Shown here: piece after piece, positions 34,547-63,978 of the stretch
Position numbering within the stretch: position 1 is the stretch's first letter
Layout of the letters: each line of letters starts with the position of its first letter
Origin: Amycolatopsis alba DSM 44262
GTDB lineage: Bacteria > Actinomycetota > Actinomycetes > Mycobacteriales > Pseudonocardiaceae
Assembly (NCBI RefSeq): GCF_000384215.1
Contig: NZ_KB913032.1
Coordinates: 4,543,665 to 4,607,664, forward strand
Direction: 5' to 3'
Length of the DNA: 64,000 nt
Made by a program: the position numbers and the translations under genes
Notes under the pieces: generated by a model
The model's database searches: none
What the model was told of the DNA's origin: nothing
What the model saw: only the letters and a program-made list of their open reading frames with translations

Positions 34547-34562
34547 TCGAACACGAGTTCGA
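34547..34562 (+). promoter_or_regulatory. Perfect LexA (SOS) box upstream of a small protein gene
   Basis: TCGAACACGAGTTCGA is a perfect match to the actinobacterial SOS box (TCGAAC, 4 bases, GTTCGA), extended to a 18-bp palindrome by flanking A and T. A -10-like TATGCT at 34573-34578 follows. Another identical-type box precedes imuA'. Confidence 0.8.
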
Positions 34563-52183: not shown

Positions 52184-52235
52184 TTGACAACCGCCGTGGG
52201 ACCCGGTCTACTGGAGATATCGAACAAGCGTTCGA
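52184..52235 (+). promoter_or_regulatory. SOS promoter of the mutasome operon: -35, -10 and LexA box
   Basis: TTGACA (52184-52189), a 17-bp spacer and TCTACT (52207-52212) make a good promoter. The perfect LexA box TCGAACAAGCGTTCGA (52220-52235) lies over the start point, so LexA should block transcription until DNA damage. Confidence 0.9.
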
Positions 52236-52310: not shown

Positions 52311-53015
52311 GTGACAGCGGAGGTGGTCGAGGCACGGGCCTTGCCGTTGGCGAGGCTGGCGGCTTTGCCAGGAGTGAGCACGGCCAGTGGCGTGGCTTCC
52401 GAGGCCGAACACGCGAGGACGACGGGAAGGGTGCTCCCGGTGTCCCCGGCGTTGTCCGGTCTGCTGCCCGCCGCGGGGCTCCGGCGCGGGAGCACCGTTT
52501 CGGTGCTGGGGTCCACGTCACTGATGCTCACCCTGCTGGCCGCCGCGACCGCCGGCGGTGCGTGGGCGGTCGCGGTCGGCCTGCCCGCGCTCGGGGTGGT
52601 CGCCGCCGCGGAACTCGGGGTCGAGGTGGGCAGGCTGGCGCTGGTCCCCCGTCCCGGTGCCGAGTTCCCGGCGGTGACCGCGGCCTTGCTCGACGGCTTC
52701 GATCTCGTGGTCGTCGGTCCGGGGCTCGCCCGGCCCGACGTGGCGAGACGGCTGTCCGCCCGTGCCCGCAACCGTGGCTCGGTGCTGCTCTCACTGGGTT
52801 CCTGGCCCGGTGCGGAGGTCGAACTGAGCTGCCGTCGCTCGCGCTGGACGGGTTTCACCGGTGACGGCGCGGGCTACCTGCGCGCTCGTGAGGTGGAGGT
52901 ACGGACGGGTGGCCGGGGTGCGGCCGCCCGGCCGATGTCGGTGTCGCTGCGGTTTCCCGGTGAAGGCGAGGTCCAGCGGGTCGGCTTTCCCGCGGCGAGG
53001 TGGGGGACGGCGTGA
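52311..53015 (+). CDS. imuA': ImuA' RecA-like mutasome subunit
   Basis: 234 residues. A degenerate RecA-fold protein without a clear Walker A; LPVSPALSGLLPAAGLRRGSTVSVLGSTSLMLTLLAAATAGGAWAVAVG is the typical part. It is the mycobacterial ImuA' (Rv3395c) equivalent. It helps ImuB and DnaE2 carry out translesion synthesis. GTG 52311 with GGGGAGGCGAGG upstream. Located about 36 kb from guaA, whereas in mycobacteria it is near guaA. Overlaps imuB (GTGA). Confidence 0.88.
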   Translation: MTAEVVEARALPLARLAALPGVSTASGVASEAEHARTTGRVLPVSPALSGLLPAAGLRRGSTVSVLGSTSLMLTLLAAATAGGAWAVAVGLPALGVVAAAELGVEVGRLALVPRPGAEFPAVTAALLDGFDLVVVGPGLARPDVARRLSARARNRGSVLLSLGSWPGAEVELSCRRSRWTGFTGDGAGYLRAREVEVRTGGRGAAARPMSVSLRFPGEGEVQRVGFPAARWGTA

Positions 53016-54631
53016 ACCTGCCTGTACGCATGCTGGTGCTGTGGTGCCCGGACTGGCCCGCGGTCGCCGCCGCGGCCGTCGCGGGGGAGGCCGTCGGCCG
53101 CCCGGCGGCGGTCTTCTCGGCGAACCGTGTGGTCGCCTGCACCGCGGTGGCCAGAGGGTACGGCGTCCGCCGCGGGATGCGGCGGCGCGAGGCCCAGTCC
53201 TGCTGCCCGGAGCTGGCGGTCTTCGGTGAGGACGACGGTCGTGACGCCCGGCTCTTCGAATCCGTCGCACGGGCGGTGGAGGAGCTGGCCGTCGGGGTCG
53301 AGGTGGTGCGGCCGGGGATCGTCGCCGTCCCGGTCGGCGGCGCGGCCGGGTATTTCGGCGGTGAGCACGGCCTCCTCGAAAGGCTGGTGGACGAGGTGTC
53401 CGTGGCGGCGGGGGTGGAATGCCAGGTCGGCGTCGCCGAAGGACTGTTCGCCGCGACGCTCGCCGCCCGTCGTTCGACGCTGGTCGGGCCCGGTGAGACG
53501 GCGGAGTTCCTGGCCCCGCTGCCCATCCGCGAACTCGACCAGCCCGAAGCCGGCCGAACCGAGCTGGTCACCTTGCTCAAGCAGCTCGGCCTTCGCACGC
53601 TGGGCGCCTTCGCGGCGCTTGACGAAAGCGACGTCTCAGCGCGTTTCGGAATGGAAGGAGTGCTCGCCCACAGGCTGGCACGAGGGCGGTCCGAACGGCC
53701 GCCGTCACGTCGTCGTCCGCCGCCCGAACTCTCGCTCGCGAAGACGTTCGATCCGCCGATCGACAGGGTCGACGCCGCCGCGTTCGTGGCGAAAGGGCTC
53801 GGCGAACGCTTCCACGCCGGGCTCTCCGCGCACGGACTGGCCTGCACCCGCCTCGGCATCTACGCCACCACCGAGACCGGCGAACAACTCGGCCGGGTAT
53901 GGCGCTGCGCCGAACCGCTGACCCCGCTCGGCGTCGCGGACAGGGTGCGCTGGCAGTTCGAAGGCTGGCTGAAGGTCCGGGACACCTCGGCGCGGCCGCG
54001 ATCCGGCGTCGTCCGGCTGCGGCTGGAGCCGGAGGAGACCGTGGAAGGCCGGTCGCTGCAACTCGGGTTGTGGCGACCGGGCGCGGCGGGCGTCCTGCGG
54101 CCGTCCACCGAGGACGAAGGCGTGTCCGGGGAGCGAGCCGGTCGCGCCCTGGTCCGGGTGCAGGGGTTGCTCGGCCCGGAGAGCGTCTTCACCGCGGTGC
54201 TCGACGGCGGCCGTGATCCCGTCGAGCGCGTCCGGCTGGTGCCGTGGGGCGACAGGCGGGAGAAGTCGGCGCAGGCGGACGCGAACTGGGCGGGGAGGCT
54301 TCCGTCGCCTTCCCCGGCGACGGTGTTCGCCCGGCCGGTGCCCGCCCAGGTACTGGACGGGAACGGGCGCGTCGTGGAGATCACCGCGCGCCGGCGGGTC
54401 ACCGCCGCGCCGTTCCTCGTGAGCTTCGAGGGAGACGAGCCGCGTGAGGTTCTCGCCTGGGCAGGGCCGTGGCTGGTCGGTGTCCGGGCGGGCTCCGGTC
54501 ACGCGCGGTCGGGGACCCGGATCCGGTTGCAGGTGCTGCTGGCCGACGGGAACGAAGACGAAGAGGCGGTGCTGCTCCGCTTCGAGCACCACGGGAATCC
54601 GATGTGGACACTGGAAGGGAAGTACGACTGA
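53012..54631 (+). CDS. imuB: ImuB Y-family polymerase-like protein
   Basis: 539 residues. Y-family polymerase fold: LVLWCPDWPAVAAA opens the palm, and GYGVRRGMRRREAQSCCPEL the fingers, but the catalytic acidic residues are missing (LVLWCPDW in place of a DxD start, VAVPVGGAAGYFGG in place of SxDE), as known for ImuB. It therefore acts as an adaptor linking DnaE2, ImuA' and the beta clamp. GTG 53012 overlaps the imuA' stop. The dnaE2 gene follows after a 50-residue ORF. Confidence 0.92.
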   Translation: MNLPVRMLVLWCPDWPAVAAAAVAGEAVGRPAAVFSANRVVACTAVARGYGVRRGMRRREAQSCCPELAVFGEDDGRDARLFESVARAVEELAVGVEVVRPGIVAVPVGGAAGYFGGEHGLLERLVDEVSVAAGVECQVGVAEGLFAATLAARRSTLVGPGETAEFLAPLPIRELDQPEAGRTELVTLLKQLGLRTLGAFAALDESDVSARFGMEGVLAHRLARGRSERPPSRRRPPPELSLAKTFDPPIDRVDAAAFVAKGLGERFHAGLSAHGLACTRLGIYATTETGEQLGRVWRCAEPLTPLGVADRVRWQFEGWLKVRDTSARPRSGVVRLRLEPEETVEGRSLQLGLWRPGAAGVLRPSTEDEGVSGERAGRALVRVQGLLGPESVFTAVLDGGRDPVERVRLVPWGDRREKSAQADANWAGRLPSPSPATVFARPVPAQVLDGNGRVVEITARRRVTAAPFLVSFEGDEPREVLAWAGPWLVGVRAGSGHARSGTRIRLQVLLADGNEDEEAVLLRFEHHGNPMWTLEGKYD

Positions 54632-54790: not shown

Positions 54791-57700
54791 ATGGGCTGGA
54801 ACAATCCTCCGCGGCCGTGGAAGGATCTCGCCCGCGAGCTCGCGGGCGAGGTCCAGCCCGGCGACGGCGGTGACAGCCCCGCGTGGAGTGCCAAACGGGA
54901 GGGCTATCAGCGGCCCCCGGATCTGACGGGACAGCTCGGCGGAGACGACGGGGCCACCGCGCGCCGGGTGCCGTACGCCGAACTGCACTGCCATTCGAAC
55001 TTCAGCTTCCTCGACGGGGCGAGTCATCCCGAGGAACTGGTGGAGGAGGCCGCGCGGCTGGGGCTGGACGCGATCGCGCTCACCGATCACGACGGCATGT
55101 ACGGCGTGGTGCGCTTCGCCGAAGCGGCCAGGGAGCTGGGCGTGCACACCGTCTTCGGCACGGAGCTCAGCTTCGGCCTGTCCGGACCGCAGAACGGATT
55201 CGCCGATCCCGAGGGCGAGCACCTTCTCCTGCTGGCCAAGCAACAGGACGGCTACCTGAGTCTGAACCGCGCGATCACCGCGGGCCGGCTGCACGGCTTC
55301 GACAGGGAGTCGTTGTCGCCCAAGGAAAGGGCGGAGAAGGGCAGGCCCGTCTACGACCTGCGCGCGGTCGCCGAAGAGGTCGACGGGAAGTGTGTCGTGC
55401 TCACCGGCTGCCGCAAGGGCGCGGTGCGCAAGGCGCTGGTCACCGGCGGTCCCGCCGCGGCCGTCGAGAGACTGAAAGAACTCATCGACTGCTTCGGCCG
55501 GGAAAACGTCTACGTCGAACTCATCGACCACAGTCTCCCTCTCGACAGCACGCACAACGACCTGCTGAGCGAGATGGCCCAGGAGTTCGGGCTCCCGACG
55601 GTGGCGACCACGGCCGCGCACTACGCCCGGCCGGAGCGGGCCCCGCTCGCCGACGCGCTCAGCGCCATCCGCGCCCGGCGCGGGCTGGAGGACATGGAGG
55701 GCTGGCTGCCCGCCGCGGGGACGGCGTTCCTGCGGTCGGGGGAGGAGATGGCCGAGATCTTCAAGCGGTACCCCGGCGCGGTGCAGCGGGCGGCGCTGCT
55801 CGGCCGGGAGTGCGCGTTCGAGCTGCACCACATCGAGCCGAAGCTGCCGCCGTTCGAGGTGCCGAAGGGGCACACCGAGGCGTCCTACTTGAAGGAGCTC
55901 ACCCTTGAGGGCGCGAAGGAGCACGAGAAGAACAAGTCTCCCGAGTACCGCCGAAAAGCCCGGAAGCTGATCGTCCACGAACTGGAGATCATCGAAAAGC
56001 TGGGTTTCCCCGGCTACTTCCTGATCGTCTGGGACATCGTCCGGTTCTGCCGGGACAACGACATCCTCTGCCAGGGCAGGGGTTCGGCCGCGAATTCGGC
56101 GGTCTGTTACGCGCTCGGCATCACCAAGGTCGACGCCGTGCGCTACGGCCTGCTCTTCGAACGGTTCCTCGCCCCGGATCGCGACGGCTACCCGGACATC
56201 GACCTCGACATCGAATCCGATCGTCGTGAGGAGGCGATCCAGTACGTCTACGGGAAATACGGGCGGTTGAACACCGCGCAGGTGGCGAACGTGATCACCT
56301 ACCGGGCGCGGTCCGCGGTCCGGGACGCGGCGCGGGCGCTGGGGTACTCGCCCGGCCAGCAGGACGCGTGGAGCAAGCAGATCGACCGCTGGGGCGCGTT
56401 GCGGGCCACGGAGAAGGACCACGACCACGACATTCCGGAAGAGGTCGTGGAACTCGCTTGCGCGCTCGAAGACTTCCCCCGGCACCTCGGTATCCATTCC
56501 GGCGGGATGGTGATCTGCGAACAGCCGGTGAGTGAAGTGGTGCCGATCGAATGGGCCCGGATGGAGAACCGCAGTGTCGTGCAGTGGGAGAAGGACGACT
56601 GCGCCGCCGCGGGATTGGTCAAATTCGATCTGCTCGGGCTCGGGATGTTGTCGGCCCTGAACTATATGATCGACCTTGTACGCGACCACAAAGGGGAAGA
56701 GGTCGACATCTCCGAATTGGATCTCAAGGACCAGAACGTCTACGAAATGCTCTGCCGGGCGGACGCGATCGGCGTCTTCCAGGTGGAGAGCCGCGCGCAG
56801 CTGGCCACGCTGCCTCGTTTGCGCCCCAGGAAGTTCTACGATCTGGCGGTCGAGGTCGCGCTCATCCGGCCCGGCCCGATCCAGGGTGGTTCGGTGCATC
56901 CCTACATCCGGCGCAAGAACGGCCAGGAGAAATGGGATTTCGACCATCCGAAACTGGCCAAAGCGCTGGGAAAGACCCTCGGTGTCCCGTTGTTCCAGGA
57001 ACAGATGATGCAGATCGCGCTCGACGTCGCCGATTTCACCCCGGCGGAAGCGGACCGGTTACGGCACGCCATGGGCGCCAAACGTTCCGAACAGAAGATG
57101 GAACGGCTCAAACGGCGTTTCCTCGAAGGAGCCGCGAAGAACGACATCGAGGGAGAGCTCGCGGAGAAGATCTTCGGCAAGCTCAAGGCGTTCGCGAATT
57201 TCGGCTTCCCGGAGAGTCACGCCCTGAGTTTCGCTCTGCTGGTGTTCGCGAGCGCGTACTTCAAGTACTACCACCCGGACGCGTTCCTGGCTGGTTTGCT
57301 GCGTGCCCAGCCGATGGGGTTCTACTCGCCGCAGTCGCTGGTCGCCGACGCGCGGCGGCACGGGGTGCGCGTGCTCGGCCCGGACATCAACGCGAGCCTC
57401 CCGCACGCGACGCTGGAACCCTTGCCGGCAGGGGGAGAGCTGCTCGCCGTGCGGGGCGGCCTGTCCACCGTGCGGATGATCGGCGAGAACCTGGCGAAGG
57501 AGATCGTCGGGGAACGGGACCGCGCCGGTCCGTTCGCGGATCTGCCCGAGGTCGCGCGGCGGGTGCGGCTGACCACGCCGCAGGTCGAGGCGCTGGCCGC
57601 GGCGGGCGCGTTCGGTTGTTTCGGCGAGAGCAGGCGGAGCGCGCTCTGGGCGGCGGGCGCGGTCGCCGACGAAAGCCTGGACAAACTGCCGGGCCTCACC

Positions 57701-58144
57701 ACCGGGGTCAAGGCGCCGATGCTGCCGGGGATGGACGAAATCGACGTCGCGGCCGCGGACGTCTGGGCCACCGGGGTGTCGCCGGACAGCTTCCCGACCC
57801 AGTTCATCCGGGAGAACCTCGACGAACTCGGGGTCGTCACGGCGGAGCGCCTGCGTGAGGTCCCGCACGGCACGCGGGTGCTGACCGGCGGCGCGGTGAC
57901 CCATCGCCAGCGGCCGGCGACCGCGGGCGGCGTCACCTTCATGAACCTCGAAGACGAGACGGGGATGATCAACGTCATCTGCACGATGGGTGTGTGGCAG
58001 CGCTACCACCGGGTCGCCCGCGGCAGCCCCGCGTTGCTGGTCCGCGGCGTGGTCGAGCGCACCGGCGAGGTGGTGAACGTCCTCGCCGAACAGATCCGGC
58101 ACCTGCCGCTGCGGATCACCGCCAAGTCCCGTGACTTCCACTGA
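54791..58144 (+). CDS. dnaE2: Error-prone DNA polymerase DnaE2
   Basis: 1117 residues, C-family polymerase alpha subunit lacking proofreading, used in damage-induced mutagenesis. The PHP domain starts AELHCHSNFSFLDGASHPEEL, the palm holds PDIDLDIESDRREEAIQYVYGKYG with the catalytic Asp residues, and the C-terminal OB fold reads VTFMNLEDETGMINVICTMGVW. It begins without its own ribosome site, 4 nt after the small ORF, so it is translationally coupled. It completes the imuA'-imuB-dnaE2 set under LexA control. Confidence 0.96.
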   Translation: MGWNNPPRPWKDLARELAGEVQPGDGGDSPAWSAKREGYQRPPDLTGQLGGDDGATARRVPYAELHCHSNFSFLDGASHPEELVEEAARLGLDAIALTDHDGMYGVVRFAEAARELGVHTVFGTELSFGLSGPQNGFADPEGEHLLLLAKQQDGYLSLNRAITAGRLHGFDRESLSPKERAEKGRPVYDLRAVAEEVDGKCVVLTGCRKGAVRKALVTGGPAAAVERLKELIDCFGRENVYVELIDHSLPLDSTHNDLLSEMAQEFGLPTVATTAAHYARPERAPLADALSAIRARRGLEDMEGWLPAAGTAFLRSGEEMAEIFKRYPGAVQRAALLGRECAFELHHIEPKLPPFEVPKGHTEASYLKELTLEGAKEHEKNKSPEYRRKARKLIVHELEIIEKLGFPGYFLIVWDIVRFCRDNDILCQGRGSAANSAVCYALGITKVDAVRYGLLFERFLAPDRDGYPDIDLDIESDRREEAIQYVYGKYGRLNTAQVANVITYRARSAVRDAARALGYSPGQQDAWSKQIDRWGALRATEKDHDHDIPEEVVELACALEDFPRHLGIHSGGMVICEQPVSEVVPIEWARMENRSVVQWEKDDCAAAGLVKFDLLGLGMLSALNYMIDLVRDHKGEEVDISELDLKDQNVYEMLCRADAIGVFQVESRAQLATLPRLRPRKFYDLAVEVALIRPGPIQGGSVHPYIRRKNGQEKWDFDHPKLAKALGKTLGVPLFQEQMMQIALDVADFTPAEADRLRHAMGAKRSEQKMERLKRRFLEGAAKNDIEGELAEKIFGKLKAFANFGFPESHALSFALLVFASAYFKYYHPDAFLAGLLRAQPMGFYSPQSLVADARRHGVRVLGPDINASLPHATLEPLPAGGELLAVRGGLSTVRMIGENLAKEIVGERDRAGPFADLPEVARRVRLTTPQVEALAAAGAFGCFGESRRSALWAAGAVADESLDKLPGLTTGVKAPMLPGMDEIDVAAADVWATGVSPDSFPTQFIRENLDELGVVTAERLREVPHGTRVLTGGAVTHRQRPATAGGVTFMNLEDETGMINVICTMGVWQRYHRVARGSPALLVRGVVERTGEVVNVLAEQIRHLPLRITAKSRDFH

Positions 58145-59311: not shown

Positions 59312-59330
59312 ATTCGGTAGGGTGGTGTTC

Positions 59331-59481
59331 GCGACGCGGAGGTGAGCCGGTGGATCACCACCCACTCCGGGGCAACCCCGGAGAGCACGAAGACAGCAAG
59401 ACGAGGCGCCCCGCGCGAGAGCGGCATGCTTCGCGTGCGGGTTCGCGCGGATGACAGGAGAAAGAGTCACCTCCGCGTCGC
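59331..59481 (+). ncRNA. Candidate retron msr-msd RNA
   Basis: Bounded by a perfect 15-bp inverted repeat, a1 59331-59345 and a2 59467-59481. Right after a1 comes AGC (A59345-G59346-C59347), the usual place of the branching G. Inside are a small hairpin GGTG/CACC (59349-59359), an 8-bp hairpin CTCCGGGG-CAA-CCCCGGAG (59365-59383) and a longer imperfect hairpin (59410-59441). This is the layout of a retron template RNA. It lies immediately upstream of the reverse transcriptase. Confidence 0.75.
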
Positions 59482-59492
59482 TTCTCGGGCCG

Positions 59493-60536
59493 ATGCCGGT
59501 CTGGCGGTGGCAGGTCGCCCGCTGGACGACGTTCGACGAGTGTGCCGCCGCGCTCGACCTGACGCCGGGTGAACTCTCGTGGTTCGCCGACTCGCGGGGC
59601 TGGAACCGGCGCGCGGCCGATCCGGTCCGGCACTACGGCTATCGCTGGATCCCGACGGCGTCCGGCGGGGTGCGGCTCATCGAACGGCCGAAACCGCGGA
59701 TCGCCGAACTGCAGCGCCGGATCCTGCGGCACGTCGTCGAGGCGCTGCCGGTGCACGAAGCCGCGCATGGGTTCCGGCGCGGACGTTCACCCCTGACCTG
59801 CGCCGCGCCGCACGCCGGGCGGGAGACCGTGGTCAGGATGGACCTCGAAGGGTTCTTCCCGGCGGTGTCCGCGCGTCGGATCTCGGCGCTGCTCGCGCTC
59901 GCCGGTTACCCGCCGGCCGTGGCGGAGGCGCTGGCGGGCGTGCTCACCACGGCCGTTCCGCCCGATGTCCTCGCCGCCGCGCCCGGCGGGCGACGGGATC
60001 CGGCCAGGGCGCGGCTGCTGAACAACCTGGCGGCCACGCACCTGCCACAGGGCGCGCCGTCCTCACCCGCGGTCGCGAACGCTGTCACGCACCACCTGGA
60101 CCGGCGGCTCGACGGCCTCGCGCGAGTGCTGGGCGCGGCGTACACGCGCTATGCCGACGATCTGGCGTTCTCCGGGGATTCCCTGCCGCTGCACCGGTTG
60201 CTGCCCGGTGTCCGGCGGATCGTGACCGACGAGGGTTTCCGCCTGCGGGACGACAAGACGTCGGTCGCCGCCGCGCACCAGCGGCAACGGGTCGCGGGCC
60301 TGGTGGTCAACAGCGCGCCCGCCGCGACGCGCGCCGACTACGACGCTCTGCGCGCGCTGCTCCACAACTGTGTCCGGACCGGCCCGGAGGCGCAGAACCG
60401 GGCCGCCCATCCGGATTTCCGTGCTCATCTGCTCGGGCGGATCGGCTGGATCGCCGCGTCTTCGCAGGCACGGGCGGCGAAGCTGCGCGCGTTGTTCGAC
60501 GGGATCGTCTGGCCTGGAGCGGGTGTGCGATCCTGA
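59493..60536 (+). CDS. Retron-type reverse transcriptase
   Basis: 347 residues from ATG 59493; ATG 59451 would make 361 but would translate across the a2 repeat. RT motifs: RLIERPKPRIAELQRRIL, HEAAHGFRRGRSPLTCAAPH (a changed form of the retron NAxxH), MDLEGFFPAV with catalytic Asp117, LPQGAPSSPAVANA, YTRYADDLAFSGD with the YADD box (220-223), VAGLVVN (changed VTG), and a C-terminal LLGRIGWIAASSQARAAKL. It should make branched msDNA from the upstream RNA. The pentapeptide protein gene follows after 4 nt. Confidence 0.88.
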   Translation: MPVWRWQVARWTTFDECAAALDLTPGELSWFADSRGWNRRAADPVRHYGYRWIPTASGGVRLIERPKPRIAELQRRILRHVVEALPVHEAAHGFRRGRSPLTCAAPHAGRETVVRMDLEGFFPAVSARRISALLALAGYPPAVAEALAGVLTTAVPPDVLAAAPGGRRDPARARLLNNLAATHLPQGAPSSPAVANAVTHHLDRRLDGLARVLGAAYTRYADDLAFSGDSLPLHRLLPGVRRIVTDEGFRLRDDKTSVAAAHQRQRVAGLVVNSAPAATRADYDALRALLHNCVRTGPEAQNRAAHPDFRAHLLGRIGWIAASSQARAAKLRALFDGIVWPGAGVRS

Positions 60537-60540
60537 ACGG

Positions 60541-61128
60541 GTGATCGAGACCGCCGAAGACTATCGAGAAGCCGTCCTTTCCCAGCAATGGTGGGAAAAA
60601 CGCAGTTTCGTCGGCTGTGACTTCACCGAAGCCGATCTGCGGGGCCTGCGCACCCAAGGGTGCACGTTCGACCAGTGCGACTTCACCAAGGTCGACTTCG
60701 AGGGCTCGCGCCACGAAGCGTCGGCGTTCCGCTCGTGCACCTTCGACCGCAGTGTGCTCGCCGGTACCCGGTGGAGTTCCTGCTCGATGCTCGGATCGTC
60801 CTTTGTGGACTGCCGGTTCCAGAAGATCGCTTTCACCGAATGTGATCTTTCGCTGGTGTCACTGAGCCGGAACCGTCTGTCCAAAGTGGATCTTTCCGGG
60901 CTGCGGCTGCGCGAGGCCAACCTGACGGAGGCGGACCTCACCGGCGCCGACCTGCGCGGCGCCGACCTCACCGGTGCCCGGCTGGCCGGCGCGAAACTCG
61001 AGGGTGCCGACCTGCGGGGCGCGCGGATCGACGCCAACGGCCTGGTGCAGGCGAACCTCTCGGGTGTGCACGTGGACACCGAGACCGCGATCGCCTACGC
61101 CGCCGCGCACGGCCTCGTCATCCACTGA
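60541..61128 (+). CDS. Pentapeptide-repeat protein, possible retron effector
   Basis: 195 residues. The C-terminal half consists of A(D/N)LxG-type pentapeptides (LREANLTEADLTGADLRGADLTGARLAGAKLEGADLRGARI) forming a right-handed beta helix. The N-terminal half has looser repeats with F/C at the centre (GCDFTEADLRGLRTQGCTFDQCDF). Such proteins can mimic DNA or block gyrase (MfpA/Qnr type), but this is not shown here. GTG 60541 starts 4 nt after the RT stop, so both are probably one operon. Confidence 0.85.
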   Translation: MIETAEDYREAVLSQQWWEKRSFVGCDFTEADLRGLRTQGCTFDQCDFTKVDFEGSRHEASAFRSCTFDRSVLAGTRWSSCSMLGSSFVDCRFQKIAFTECDLSLVSLSRNRLSKVDLSGLRLREANLTEADLTGADLRGADLTGARLAGAKLEGADLRGARIDANGLVQANLSGVHVDTETAIAYAAAHGLVIH

Positions 61129-61196: not shown

Positions 61197-63866
61197 CTAG
61201 TCGATCGGCGGTTCGCCAGGGTCCAGTTCGATGAGGTCGCCCTCGGCGAGCAGCTCCTCGATGGACGCCGGCAGCAGGTACGCCGACCCGCCACCCGGCT
61301 GGTTGAACCACGGGATCGCGACACCGGCGAGAGCCTCGAGCGGCCGCTGCACGCGATACACGTGGTACGGCCGGTTCACCCACTCCGGCACGAGCGAGCG
61401 CTCCTCGAACGGTGTCCCGGCCGCGTAGGTCAGGTTGCCGTTCGGGCCGCCGAAGCGGTCCAGTTCACTGCCCGCGGGCAGCTCACGCAGTTCCTTGCCG
61501 CGGAACAGCGTCAGCGGCGGCTCGCCGTTGAGCGGCGAGATCGGCCAGTTCTGCTTGGCGTCCGGAGGCCCGGCGTTCGCCGCGGCAGGCGGGCGCGCCG
61601 GTTCCTCGCGCCGCATCGGCGGCGGGGCCACCGGCGGTTCGCGGCGCGGCGGCGCTGGCGGCGGCGGGCTCGCCAGCACCGGGTTCGGCCGCACCGGGGG
61701 CGCGGGCGGGACCGGTGCGGGGGCGGGCTCGTCGTCCAGATCGTCCCCGAGCAGCTCCTCGGCCGTCGTGAACGCCGTCTGCTCCTGCGCCGGGATCGAC
61801 TCCCGCGGGGGCACCGGATGCGAACCGGTCGCGATCTCGGGGGACAGCGTCGCCAGCACGGGCCGCGCCGGAACGGGTTCCTCGACAGGCGGTTCTTCGG
61901 CGGCGGGTTCCTCGTCGAAGGCCTGCTCATCCGCGGGCGGAGCGCCGTTCGGGTTCAGCAGGACCTTGCCGAGCATGAACGCGGCCGCGTCCTCGGCGTC
62001 GCCGAACACCGCCGGGTTGGTCAGCTTCCCGTCGTACCAGCCGACCCGCCAGCCGCCGCCGTCGACCTGCTCGACGCTCCAGCCGTGGTCGGCGGGAGCC
62101 CCGATGCGATAGACGTCGTCGGGCACGTCGAGGTCGTCGAACTTCGACTGCAGTTCGTTCAGCACGGGCACGGGGTGCTCGACGCGGCGCGGGGCCTCCT
62201 CGCGCTCCGGCTCCGGGCGGGGCACGGGGGCGGTAGCAAAGGTCCCCCGCTCCTGCGGCGGGGCGTCGACCTGCGTGACCTCGGAGTCCGACGGCGGGGG
62301 CACGTTCGGCTCCGCGTCGTGCGTCAGGAGAGGCAGTTCGGGACCGGCGTCGGCCTGCTCGACCGGCGTGTAACCGGCGGTCGTCTCTTCCTCGGGGGGC
62401 GCGTACGGCTGGTTCTCTTCGGCGCGGGTGTACGCGTCCCGCTCTTCCTCGTGCGGCTGCTCGTAGGCGTCGACCTGCGCGGGCCGCGCGTACGTGGTGG
62501 CCTCCGGGTCGGCGGCCTGCGGCTCCGGTTCGGGCTCGGCACGCTGGTGCGGCGCTTCGTCCTGCCGCTCCTGGTCGGCGTAGACGTCCTGTTCGGACTC
62601 GTGGAACTGCGCCTCGTCGTGCGCGTACTGGTCTTCGTAGCCGTCTTCGTACCGCTGCTCGGCGGCGGCTTCGTGGAAGTCCTGCGCCTGGTAGTCCTGG
62701 GTGTCGTAGTCCTCTTCGTACCGCTGGGCCTGCTCGGCCTGATCCGGAAGCGTGGACTCGGCGGCGGGAACGGCCGCCGCGGCGGCGACCGGTGCGGCCG
62801 CCGCGGCCGCTGCCACGGCGGGGTCCGGGCCCTGCTGATGCGGCGGCGGGACGGGCGGCTGAGCGGCCTGGTTCGGACCAGGGCCCGCGGGACCCTGAGG
62901 TCCGGGCTGGTTGACCGGGGCCTGCTGCTGCGGCGGCACGGGGCCGTTCTGCGGCGGGCCCTGCGGAGGCGGGCCCACGGGGCCGCCGTTGGGGCCACCC
63001 GGTCCGGCCGGGCCGTTGGGGCGCTGCTGCTGCGGCTGATTCCCCCGCGTGAGGTACCCCGCCGCGGCCTGCAGCGTCGGGGCGTCGACCTCGGGCAGCG
63101 CGAAGTCGTTCTGCCGGACGTGGTCGATCAGGTCGAGTTCCGGTGAGACGCCGTATTCACGCAGGTAGAAGTTCACGGCGGCGGGCCAGATCCACTGCCC
63201 GTCACTGTGGAAGGCGACCGGGACGGTGGCCTCGGGGGTCTGCGCGAGCCTGTCGATGTCGTAGCCGCGTTCGGTGACCACCAGCGGCGCGTGGTCGAGG
63301 TACTCGAGCAGCCTGTCCTGCTCCTCGATCTCCAGGTCGGGCCGGTTGATCACCGGACGCCCGGCCGGGCCGATGGTGTCGAAGATGCGGGCGATGCGGA
63401 AATGCGGCCCAGGCTGCTCCGGGCCGAGGCCGGACATGCGCCGGATCAGCCATTCGGGCACATTCTCCTCGGAACGGGGGAACATGCGCAGCTCGTCCGA
63501 GAGCGCCTGCGGAGGCGGCGCGAGGCGCCACTGGGGCTCGTCGCGGTTGTACTCGAGGTTGTAGCTGGACGGGTGGTCTAGCTGGTAACGCGCGTTGAAC
63601 CAGGTGCCGCGGCCGTCGCGGTACATCCCGGCACGGAGCCTGCCGAACAGCGTCGCGATGTCATGCGTCGCGACCCACTCGTGCGAGGTGCCGTCCTCGG
63701 TGATGATCTCGCCGGTCATCTCGTGGTACCTGCCGACGGCTCGGTACTCGGCGGTCACCTTCCGCCAATCGCGCGGCGCGGCCCGCAGCAGGGCGAGGCC
63801 GATCTGTTTGACCAGGGTGTCCTGCTCGGTCGCGTTCAACTGAGTCGTCGGTTGTGCCACGGTCAC
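61197..63866 (-). CDS. Large modular protein with a C-terminal TNT-type (NAD glycohydrolase) toxin domain
   Basis: About 889 residues. N-terminal 260 residues form an alpha/beta module found in actinobacterial TNT proteins; then a Pro/Gln-rich and Glu/Tyr-rich linker; a second small module (VYRIGAPADHGWSVEQVDGGGWRVGWYDGKLT); another Pro-rich linker; and TNT at the C-terminus: LPAGSELDRFGGPNG, RPYHVYRVQRPL and IPWFNQPGGGSAYLLP. TNT of CpnT has a catalytic Gln in the GGGxQ part, which here reads GGGSAY, so activity may be lost (from memory of the family). GTG 63866 with a TACGGT -10 6 nt upstream suggests a leaderless start; GTG 63860 is alternative. It is cut off from any visible immunity gene. 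Confidence 0.82.
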   Translation of the reverse strand: MTVAQPTTQLNATEQDTLVKQIGLALLRAAPRDWRKVTAEYRAVGRYHEMTGEIITEDGTSHEWVATHDIATLFGRLRAGMYRDGRGTWFNARYQLDHPSSYNLEYNRDEPQWRLAPPPQALSDELRMFPRSEENVPEWLIRRMSGLGPEQPGPHFRIARIFDTIGPAGRPVINRPDLEIEEQDRLLEYLDHAPLVVTERGYDIDRLAQTPEATVPVAFHSDGQWIWPAAVNFYLREYGVSPELDLIDHVRQNDFALPEVDAPTLQAAAGYLTRGNQPQQQRPNGPAGPGGPNGGPVGPPPQGPPQNGPVPPQQQAPVNQPGPQGPAGPGPNQAAQPPVPPPHQQGPDPAVAAAAAAAPVAAAAAVPAAESTLPDQAEQAQRYEEDYDTQDYQAQDFHEAAAEQRYEDGYEDQYAHDEAQFHESEQDVYADQERQDEAPHQRAEPEPEPQAADPEATTYARPAQVDAYEQPHEEERDAYTRAEENQPYAPPEEETTAGYTPVEQADAGPELPLLTHDAEPNVPPPSDSEVTQVDAPPQERGTFATAPVPRPEPEREEAPRRVEHPVPVLNELQSKFDDLDVPDDVYRIGAPADHGWSVEQVDGGGWRVGWYDGKLTNPAVFGDAEDAAAFMLGKVLLNPNGAPPADEQAFDEEPAAEEPPVEEPVPARPVLATLSPEIATGSHPVPPRESIPAQEQTAFTTAEELLGDDLDDEPAPAPVPPAPPVRPNPVLASPPPPAPPRREPPVAPPPMRREEPARPPAAANAGPPDAKQNWPISPLNGEPPLTLFRGKELRELPAGSELDRFGGPNGNLTYAAGTPFEERSLVPEWVNRPYHVYRVQRPLEALAGVAIPWFNQPGGGSAYLLPASIEELLAEGDLIELDPGEPPID
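62226..62253 (-). repeat. Second dispersed repeat inside the TNT-protein coding region
   Basis: 27 of 28 bases match 20682-20709 in the DMT transporter gene, in the same reading frame (ERGTFATAP) in both proteins, in a linker region here. Confidence 0.8.
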
Positions 63867-63978
63867 ATTTTGACCGTATCCGCGCTCGTGTGCACCCCGC
63901 ATGTGGGTTTTGCCGCTCTTGACAATCCGGAAGATGCCCTGACCTGGTGCCTCGTCACTCACCCTGGATACTGAAAAC

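Follow-up and report, generated by a model that had tools for sequence, protein, structure and literature searches.

Does an exact inverted repeat followed by a reverse transcriptase (RT) gene in Amycolatopsis alba DSM 44262 constitute a true retron and, if so, with which protein might it act? The question was raised by a window of 64,000 nucleotides (NZ_KB913032.1, positions 4,543,665 to 4,607,664), in which the original prediction, made from the letters alone, recognized a retron-like locus with a pentapeptide gene as its partner. The genome, 9.81 Mb in one contig, has a single match to the RT, and the features of the locus, along with those of a remote gene pair discussed below, are given in Table 1.

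Table 1. Features of the retron locus and of the remote gene pair; positions are those of the window except in the last two rows
Feature	Position	Strand	Remarks
TAGGGT, -10-like box (TANNNT), predicted promoter of the retron RNA	59318..59323	+	13 nt before a1
a1 arm of the retron RNA	59331..59345	+	Pairs with a2; 8 of 15 pairs changed on both sides among relatives
Candidate branching G (A59345-G59346-C59347)	59346	+	Invariant in 26 of 26 aligned RNAs
msr hairpin 1	59349..59362	+	Helix 2; pairing in 83% of cells, two-sided changes at 3 of 5 pairs
msr hairpin 2 (CTCCGGGG-CAA-CCCCGGAG)	59365..59383	+	Helix 3; pairing in 99.5% of cells
Predicted reverse-transcribed DNA, about 55-75 nt	59405..59466	-	Both ends estimated from retron anatomy
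msd stem 59411-59417/59444-59450 enclosing hairpin 59424-59438	59411..59450	+	Helices 4 and 5; 93% and 89% of cells paired
a2 arm of the retron RNA	59467..59481	+	Exact repeat, alignment, covariation
Retron reverse transcriptase, 347 aa	59493..60536	+	11-nt gap from a2; start codon chosen
Pentapeptide gene next to the RT	60541-61128
SWIM protein gene, 377 aa	G000:C1:7109965-7111095 (window's genome)		2.5 Mb from the retron
SWIM and DUF6493 gene pair, tail to tail	G000:C1:7107532-7111095 (L176:4533-8096)		DUF6493 protein, 815 aa

The retron RNA and its reverse transcriptase

The repeat, predicted to be a perfect one of 15 bp, is indeed exact at 15 of 15 positions (59331-59345 / 59467-59481), with a spacer of 121 nt, and delimits an RNA of 151 nt directly 5' of the RT gene. 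Folding, which had been suggested as a check, gives -86.5 kcal/mol for the 170-nt stretch around the repeat, a value reached by none of 200 shuffles (z -3.48). The AGC noticed at the expected branching position occupies 59345-59347, making G59346 the first base after a1, and we take it to be the putative branching G from its role in known retrons. The hairpins seen between the repeats resolve into two msr hairpins and a nested msd stem (inner hairpin arms 59424-59429/59433-59438), with covariation in each helix.

These helices were examined in an RNA alignment (A2) of 26 rows, comprising the window and 25 of the 28 loci L002-L029 (the near-copies L015, L018 and L019 were left out), mostly from Amycolatopsis with others from Kibdelosporangium, Kutzneria and Crossiella. 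G, A and G at 59344-59346 are invariant in it. Under the structure taken from the window, 93.6% of the cells pair, and 16 of the 41 pairs are changed on both sides as compared to 5.3 +/- 1.6 in shuffles; all five helices have at least one such pair, with two apiece in helices 4 and 5, and in msr hairpin 2 one pair goes from C-G to U-A in 4 rows. Shifting one side by 1-3 columns lowers the pairing to 36-57%. Loss of the a1/a2 pairing in relatives had been named as an outcome that would speak against a retron; instead, the pairing is kept and covaries, even in Crossiella, whose arms have strongly diverged from those of the window with their complementarity retained. Compensatory changes lend support to the fold of the retron RNA. 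As DNA, the predicted msd copy folds only slightly better than its shuffles (z -1.67, 13 of 200 equally good), and Rfam returned nothing for the window at gathering scores, with one reverse-strand match below them (E 0.99). At L010:4865-4991 the RNA is about 26 nt shorter between the msr hairpins and the msd stem, with a1, a2 and the RT kept.

Among 51 distant loci (L030-L080; two of them come without upstream sequence), a covariance model built from 20 of the 26 rows (R1) matches 5' of the RT in 18 (E < 0.01), including representatives from Rhodococcus, Hyphomicrobium, Acidovorax, a Desulfobulbaceae bacterium and Planctomycetota, with no match at this threshold in the remaining distant loci of the set, those of type XIII-like character included. 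R1 further matches in 30 of 30 loci from the family, with four genomes shared with the training set, two matches partial (L146, L152) and one doubtful (L147, about 1 kb off the RT gene call). Of 29 loci from the genus it matches in all 29, several of their strains being also in the training set. In all three named records, from Dietzia, Tsukamurella and Burkholderia pyrrocinia, the match precedes the annotated RT gene by 11-17 nt. Of two controls, the St85-family RT has no R1 match upstream, and the record of the Ec67-family RT comes without upstream sequence. R1-type RNA precedes related RTs from Actinobacteria, Proteobacteria and Planctomycetes, and a covariance model is now at hand for one retron RNA common to these groups. 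In a test on the 25 nt upstream of the RNA, for 38 loci chosen among the R1 matches, a TANNNT box occurs 13-20 nt before the RNA in 35, as against 1.1% of random 25-nt windows; hence, to judge from sequence, the retron RNA is probably transcribed from its own promoter. A related retron in Tsukamurella tyrosinosolvens (L171:3512-4951) is situated in the stretch from polA to rpsA, near a DNA repair polymerase gene.

The RT is a retron-type enzyme with a YxDD core and regions X and Y, and the motifs previously read from it (YADD, LPQG, LLGRIGW and the altered CAAPH and VAG) all stand as written in the frame 59493-60536. In alignments of the family the N of NAxxH is usually replaced, and at the second motif TG is in the majority with AG common in Pseudonocardiaceae; according to the available text of PMC6868368, NAxxH and VTG are altered in some proven retrons too. 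Its best PADLOC profiles are RT_other (543 bits) and RT_outgroup (510), followed by RT_XIII (291). The AlphaFold model (pLDDT 95.2) has retron RTs as all of its 18 best PDB matches, with group II and DGR structures ranking below. In a tree of 45 rows, obtained by a short search and with group II as its root, the six group II RTs taken from relatives are separated at support 100; the clustering with group II RTs that had been named as a counter-indication was not seen in it. The actinobacterial RTs form one branch (98) that divides into Pseudonocardiaceae (99) and Rhodococcus-Tsukamurella-Dietzia (95), and since this split follows taxonomy it suits mainly vertical descent of the RT in Actinobacteria. 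With a dN/dS of 0.10-0.21 against 8 relatives, the RT is under purifying selection. Its nearest named relatives are from Amycolatopsis species (95% identity to that of A. thailandensis), while most non-Amycolatopsis RTs among the 120 best homologs are 400-450 aa long, with an N-terminal extension absent from the window RT. At L156 (G088:C10:297317-298966), the RT match is split into two parts, covering residues 3-166 and 161-341, which lie some 0.6 kb from each other and look as though an insertion had separated them; the RNA is retained upstream.

The weak matches of the window RT to RVT_1 and the group II model might be taken to indicate an RT of a group II intron, a DGR or another non-retron class, with the repeat being due to chance or a terminator. 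However, the group II model, with its cut-off of 300 bits, gives a score of 48 (33 in the search of the genome), and the separation in the tree, the structural ranking and the covarying a1/a2 RNA of the relatives all run counter to this, making it extremely improbable. With RNA covariation, RT family scores, tree and fold in agreement, the retron-like locus of the original prediction is almost certainly a real retron, and its msDNA is a prediction.

Distribution, losses and the pentapeptide neighbor

The view that retrons are uncommon in this group of actinomycetes has to be given up, with the RT being present in 38 of 80 genomes of the genus (40 at E <= 0.001, less the weak matches of G008 and G036, E 1e-7 to 2e-6) and in 48 of 297 genomes sampled from the family. 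A GC-rich retron of this frequency in Amycolatopsis, which is known for vancomycin-type antibiotics, could serve as a starting point for tools of genome editing in actinomycetes. The presence of retrons in Actinobacteria had been recognized earlier by bioinformatics, as stated in the available text of PMC6868368, and our literature search found no paper joining a retron with Amycolatopsis, Pseudonocardiaceae or a SWIM zinc finger. A second set of Amycolatopsis genomes has the retron at another site with other neighbors; a decayed RT remnant (L113, G008:C1:8632505-8632801; 42% over residues 7-107) lies at this second site. A record titled Rhodococcus rhodnii (L025) shows a Kibdelosporangium-like dnaE2-retron-USP-TNT locus, as do L024 and L026, and its title is probably wrong.

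Three RT-free close relatives (G012, G042 and G063) keep the hemerythrin, glyoxalase and pentapeptide neighbors and bear three different deletion scars, each ending in the tail of the RT gene; in G063 the first part of the retron RNA is still present. Therefore, the retron was once there and was lost three times independently, with the pentapeptide gene staying.

The 1117-aa product of 54791-58144 scores 1469 bits as an error-prone DNA polymerase (cut-off 939): the retron site is the dnaE2 locus, and the pentapeptide gene belongs to that locus. The partnership of the latter with the RT, as originally proposed, did not withstand comparison across genomes. An ortholog is found in 79 of the 80 genus genomes, 41 of them without the RT, and in 204 of the 297 family genomes as opposed to 48 with the RT; in 16 of the 38 RT-bearing genus genomes it lies apart from the RT, up to 6.4 Mb away on one contig. 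Its dN/dS of 0.02-0.08 against 6 relatives points to a stronger constraint than that on the RT, which suits a function of its own. That the pentapeptide protein is an effector or antitoxin of the retron could be argued from its location within 300 bp of the RT in the other 22 of the 38 genomes, from its being the next gene in 25 of 119 loci and from Crossiella, where it overlaps the RT gene by 4-8 bp with no dnaE2 seen in the flanks examined. Weighed against its wide occurrence without the RT, its displacement, its survival of three retron deletions and its separate constraint, we consider such a role very unlikely, and the protein is in all probability not the retron effector.

In the 119 loci with a called next gene (calls by codon usage), 44 have this gene on the opposite strand; where it shares the strand of the RT, the distance exceeds 60 bp in 31 and is within 60 bp in 44, the last being mostly pentapeptide genes, with a universal stress protein at the same locus in other genera. 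Across these loci we found no conserved adjacent effector, the next gene varying between clades, and at the window locus no effector gene lies within the retron unit, as it would in a tripartite retron. PADLOC, run on 88 neighbor proteins, recovered SWIM_XIII in four, from distant type XIII-like loci, and otherwise scattered single or double matches, for example to mad2, mad3, PDC-S03 and PD-T4-2_B. Elsewhere in the window, a long protein encoded on the other strand (61197-63962) is a fixed neighbor of the dnaE2-pentapeptide locus, and a TNT domain is present in two scanned neighbor proteins, probably its counterparts in L012 and L023. Perfect CGAACNNNNGTTCG boxes, which we assume to be LexA-like, occur at 52221-52234 and 34548-34561, and sites with at most one mismatch number 17 in the window versus 5.2 expected; the box at 52221-52234 precedes a DNA polymerase Y-like gene (53000-54631, with weak matches to pol IV) and dnaE2 by about 0.8 kb.

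A remote SWIM/DUF6493 gene pair

The occurrence of SWIM_XIII at the type XIII-like loci led us to search the genus for it. In the window's genome, the search points to a SWIM protein homologous to that of type XIII (hhalign 99.8%, E 1.2e-28, 331 columns), residues 16-257 of which are modeled as resembling a sliding clamp (PCNA/9-1-1). No homology between its partner DUF6493 and the ARM-like gene found at type XIII loci emerged from hhalign (probability 0.15%). Close SWIM orthologs (85-100%) are present in 15 of the 80 genus genomes, all with the RT, and no whole ortholog occurs in the 42 RT-free ones (of 18 matches, those of G070 and G079, at 44-46%, and a remnant in G063 were set aside). Within the clade of the window, 15 of 16 RT-bearing members have it, and G037 has an intact-looking RNA and RT with no pair. 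In the family, 36 of 297 genomes give matches, of which 12 full-length ones were counted (8 from the genus, 4 from Crossiella) and 23 partial ones (42-48%) and the G063 remnant set aside. Among five Crossiella genomes, the ortholog (69-73%) is found in the four with the RT and is absent from the RT-free G094; in the two examined, G162 and G132, DUF6493 (58%) lies beside it.

The site of the pair is still recognizable in the three clade members that lost the RT: G012 keeps the flanks and has nothing of the pair between them, G042 has lost the pair along with other genes, and G063 retains a fragment of the SWIM gene. The pair is thus gone or broken in three of three independent retron losses. 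The SWIM-RT link has a Fisher p of 0.004 in the 19-genome clade with kinship ignored, and on the tree the co-loss amounts to three independent pairs, too few for significance (median p 0.25). The genomes of G042, G063 and G037 are small (8.0-8.4 Mb), so the shared gene loss could be general shrinkage. Moreover, 23 of the 38 RT-bearing genus genomes are without a close SWIM ortholog and, therefore, a partnership with the pair cannot be universal. More distant SWIM relatives, at 42-48%, turned up in 23 of 297 family genomes, and 19 of these are without the RT; further homologs at 58-67%, for example from Amycolatopsis sp. lyj-109 and metagenomes, stand outside these counts. The link between retron and pair from co-distribution and co-loss is suggestive, and we tentatively regard the pair as the retron's partner, at somewhat less than an even chance.

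Our main reading, to which we give a probability of about 0.5, is that the locus is a retron unit without an adjacent effector, with a predicted msDNA, that likely works with the remote SWIM/DUF6493 pair. The unit would be transcribed from its own promoter, and, by the precedent of known retrons, the RT, primed from the 2'-OH of G59346, would copy the msd stem into a DNA of 55-75 nt to yield a branched RNA-DNA (msDNA). Hypothetically, the complex of RT and msDNA might hold the remote pair inactive in an antitoxin-like manner, and a phage disturbing the complex might release it. This direction is suggested by the pair not being found without the retron and the retron being found without the pair in the genomes searched: with an antitoxin-like retron a one-sided pattern would result, as the partner can go first and the retron cannot. 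A more speculative extension, which we hold to be rather doubtful, is that of a split retron, with RNA and RT at one site and a toxin-like unit of clamp-like SWIM and DUF6493 megabases off, joined to them only by dependence; solitary-looking retrons would then have partners in trans, and SWIM might sense or seize replicating phage DNA.

A competing explanation is a solitary retron with no dedicated effector, perhaps acting via a host protein, as effectorless action is thought possible for vertically inherited myxobacterial retrons; the co-distribution with SWIM/DUF6493 would then come from chance and genome shrinkage. The varying next gene, the recurrence of two chromosomal sites within the genus, the agreement of the tree with taxonomy in Actinobacteria and the many RT-bearing genomes without a close SWIM ortholog all favor it, but it has to accommodate the coincidence of all three retron losses with a lost or broken pair at a separate site, and the failure of any RT-free genus genome to keep a whole SWIM ortholog. 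We see it as a serious possibility, only a little short of even odds. Retron partners are usually found by reading neighboring genes; if, as in our main reading, this retron guards a remote pair, retrons filed as effectorless could be tested by asking which distant genes vanish with them. Within the literature searched, and as far as these searches go, the cross-phylum covarying RNA family, the independence of the pentapeptide gene and the remote-partner hypothesis are new.

Comparison with known systems

RT_other and RT_outgroup (PDLC02949 and PDLC03740) cover nearly the whole window RT, which is without the first 78-141 positions of these profiles, and the tool output names no partner gene or RNA for them. 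Type XIII is the nearest numbered RT type and provides the homolog of the SWIM protein. An assignment of the window locus to type XIII itself was rejected, as RT_other outscores RT_XIII and no SWIM gene adjoins the RT. Five loci (L066, L067, L071, L074 and L075) look like true type XIII loci: SWIM_XIII is upstream of the RT, behind a gene of 670-861 aa in L067, L071 and L075, and the RT of L075, the one tested among them, scores 608 bits with RT_XIII and 351 with RT_other. The R1 model has no match in these five. Unlike in type XIII, the SWIM gene of the window's genome is megabases removed from the RT, codes for a shorter protein and lies tail to tail with DUF6493. A retron type XIII has been reported by PADLOC in a Variovorax strain, according to the available text of PMC11953036.

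The top structural match of the window RT is that of retron Ec86 (Eco1; 7v9x, TM 0.77 by target, 22% identity), which differs from the window retron in RT clade, RNA and effector. Ec86 shares the anatomy of a1, branch G and a2. Long RTs, with the N-terminal extension in most family members, and no standing neighbor effector recall retrons of the Mx162/Sa163 type. Like Mx162 and Sa163, for which the available text of PMC6868368 gives vertical inheritance, the window retron appears to be inherited mainly with its lineage. The myxobacterial RTs found here (P0185, P0131 and P0122) fall in another part of the tree.

Finally, in G070 a SWIM protein of 44% identity (L179:4474-11417) is encoded between a 591-aa gene and presumed RNA-repair genes, whose products look by sequence like Hen1 and Pnkp, a setting which suggests that the SWIM family serves several systems.
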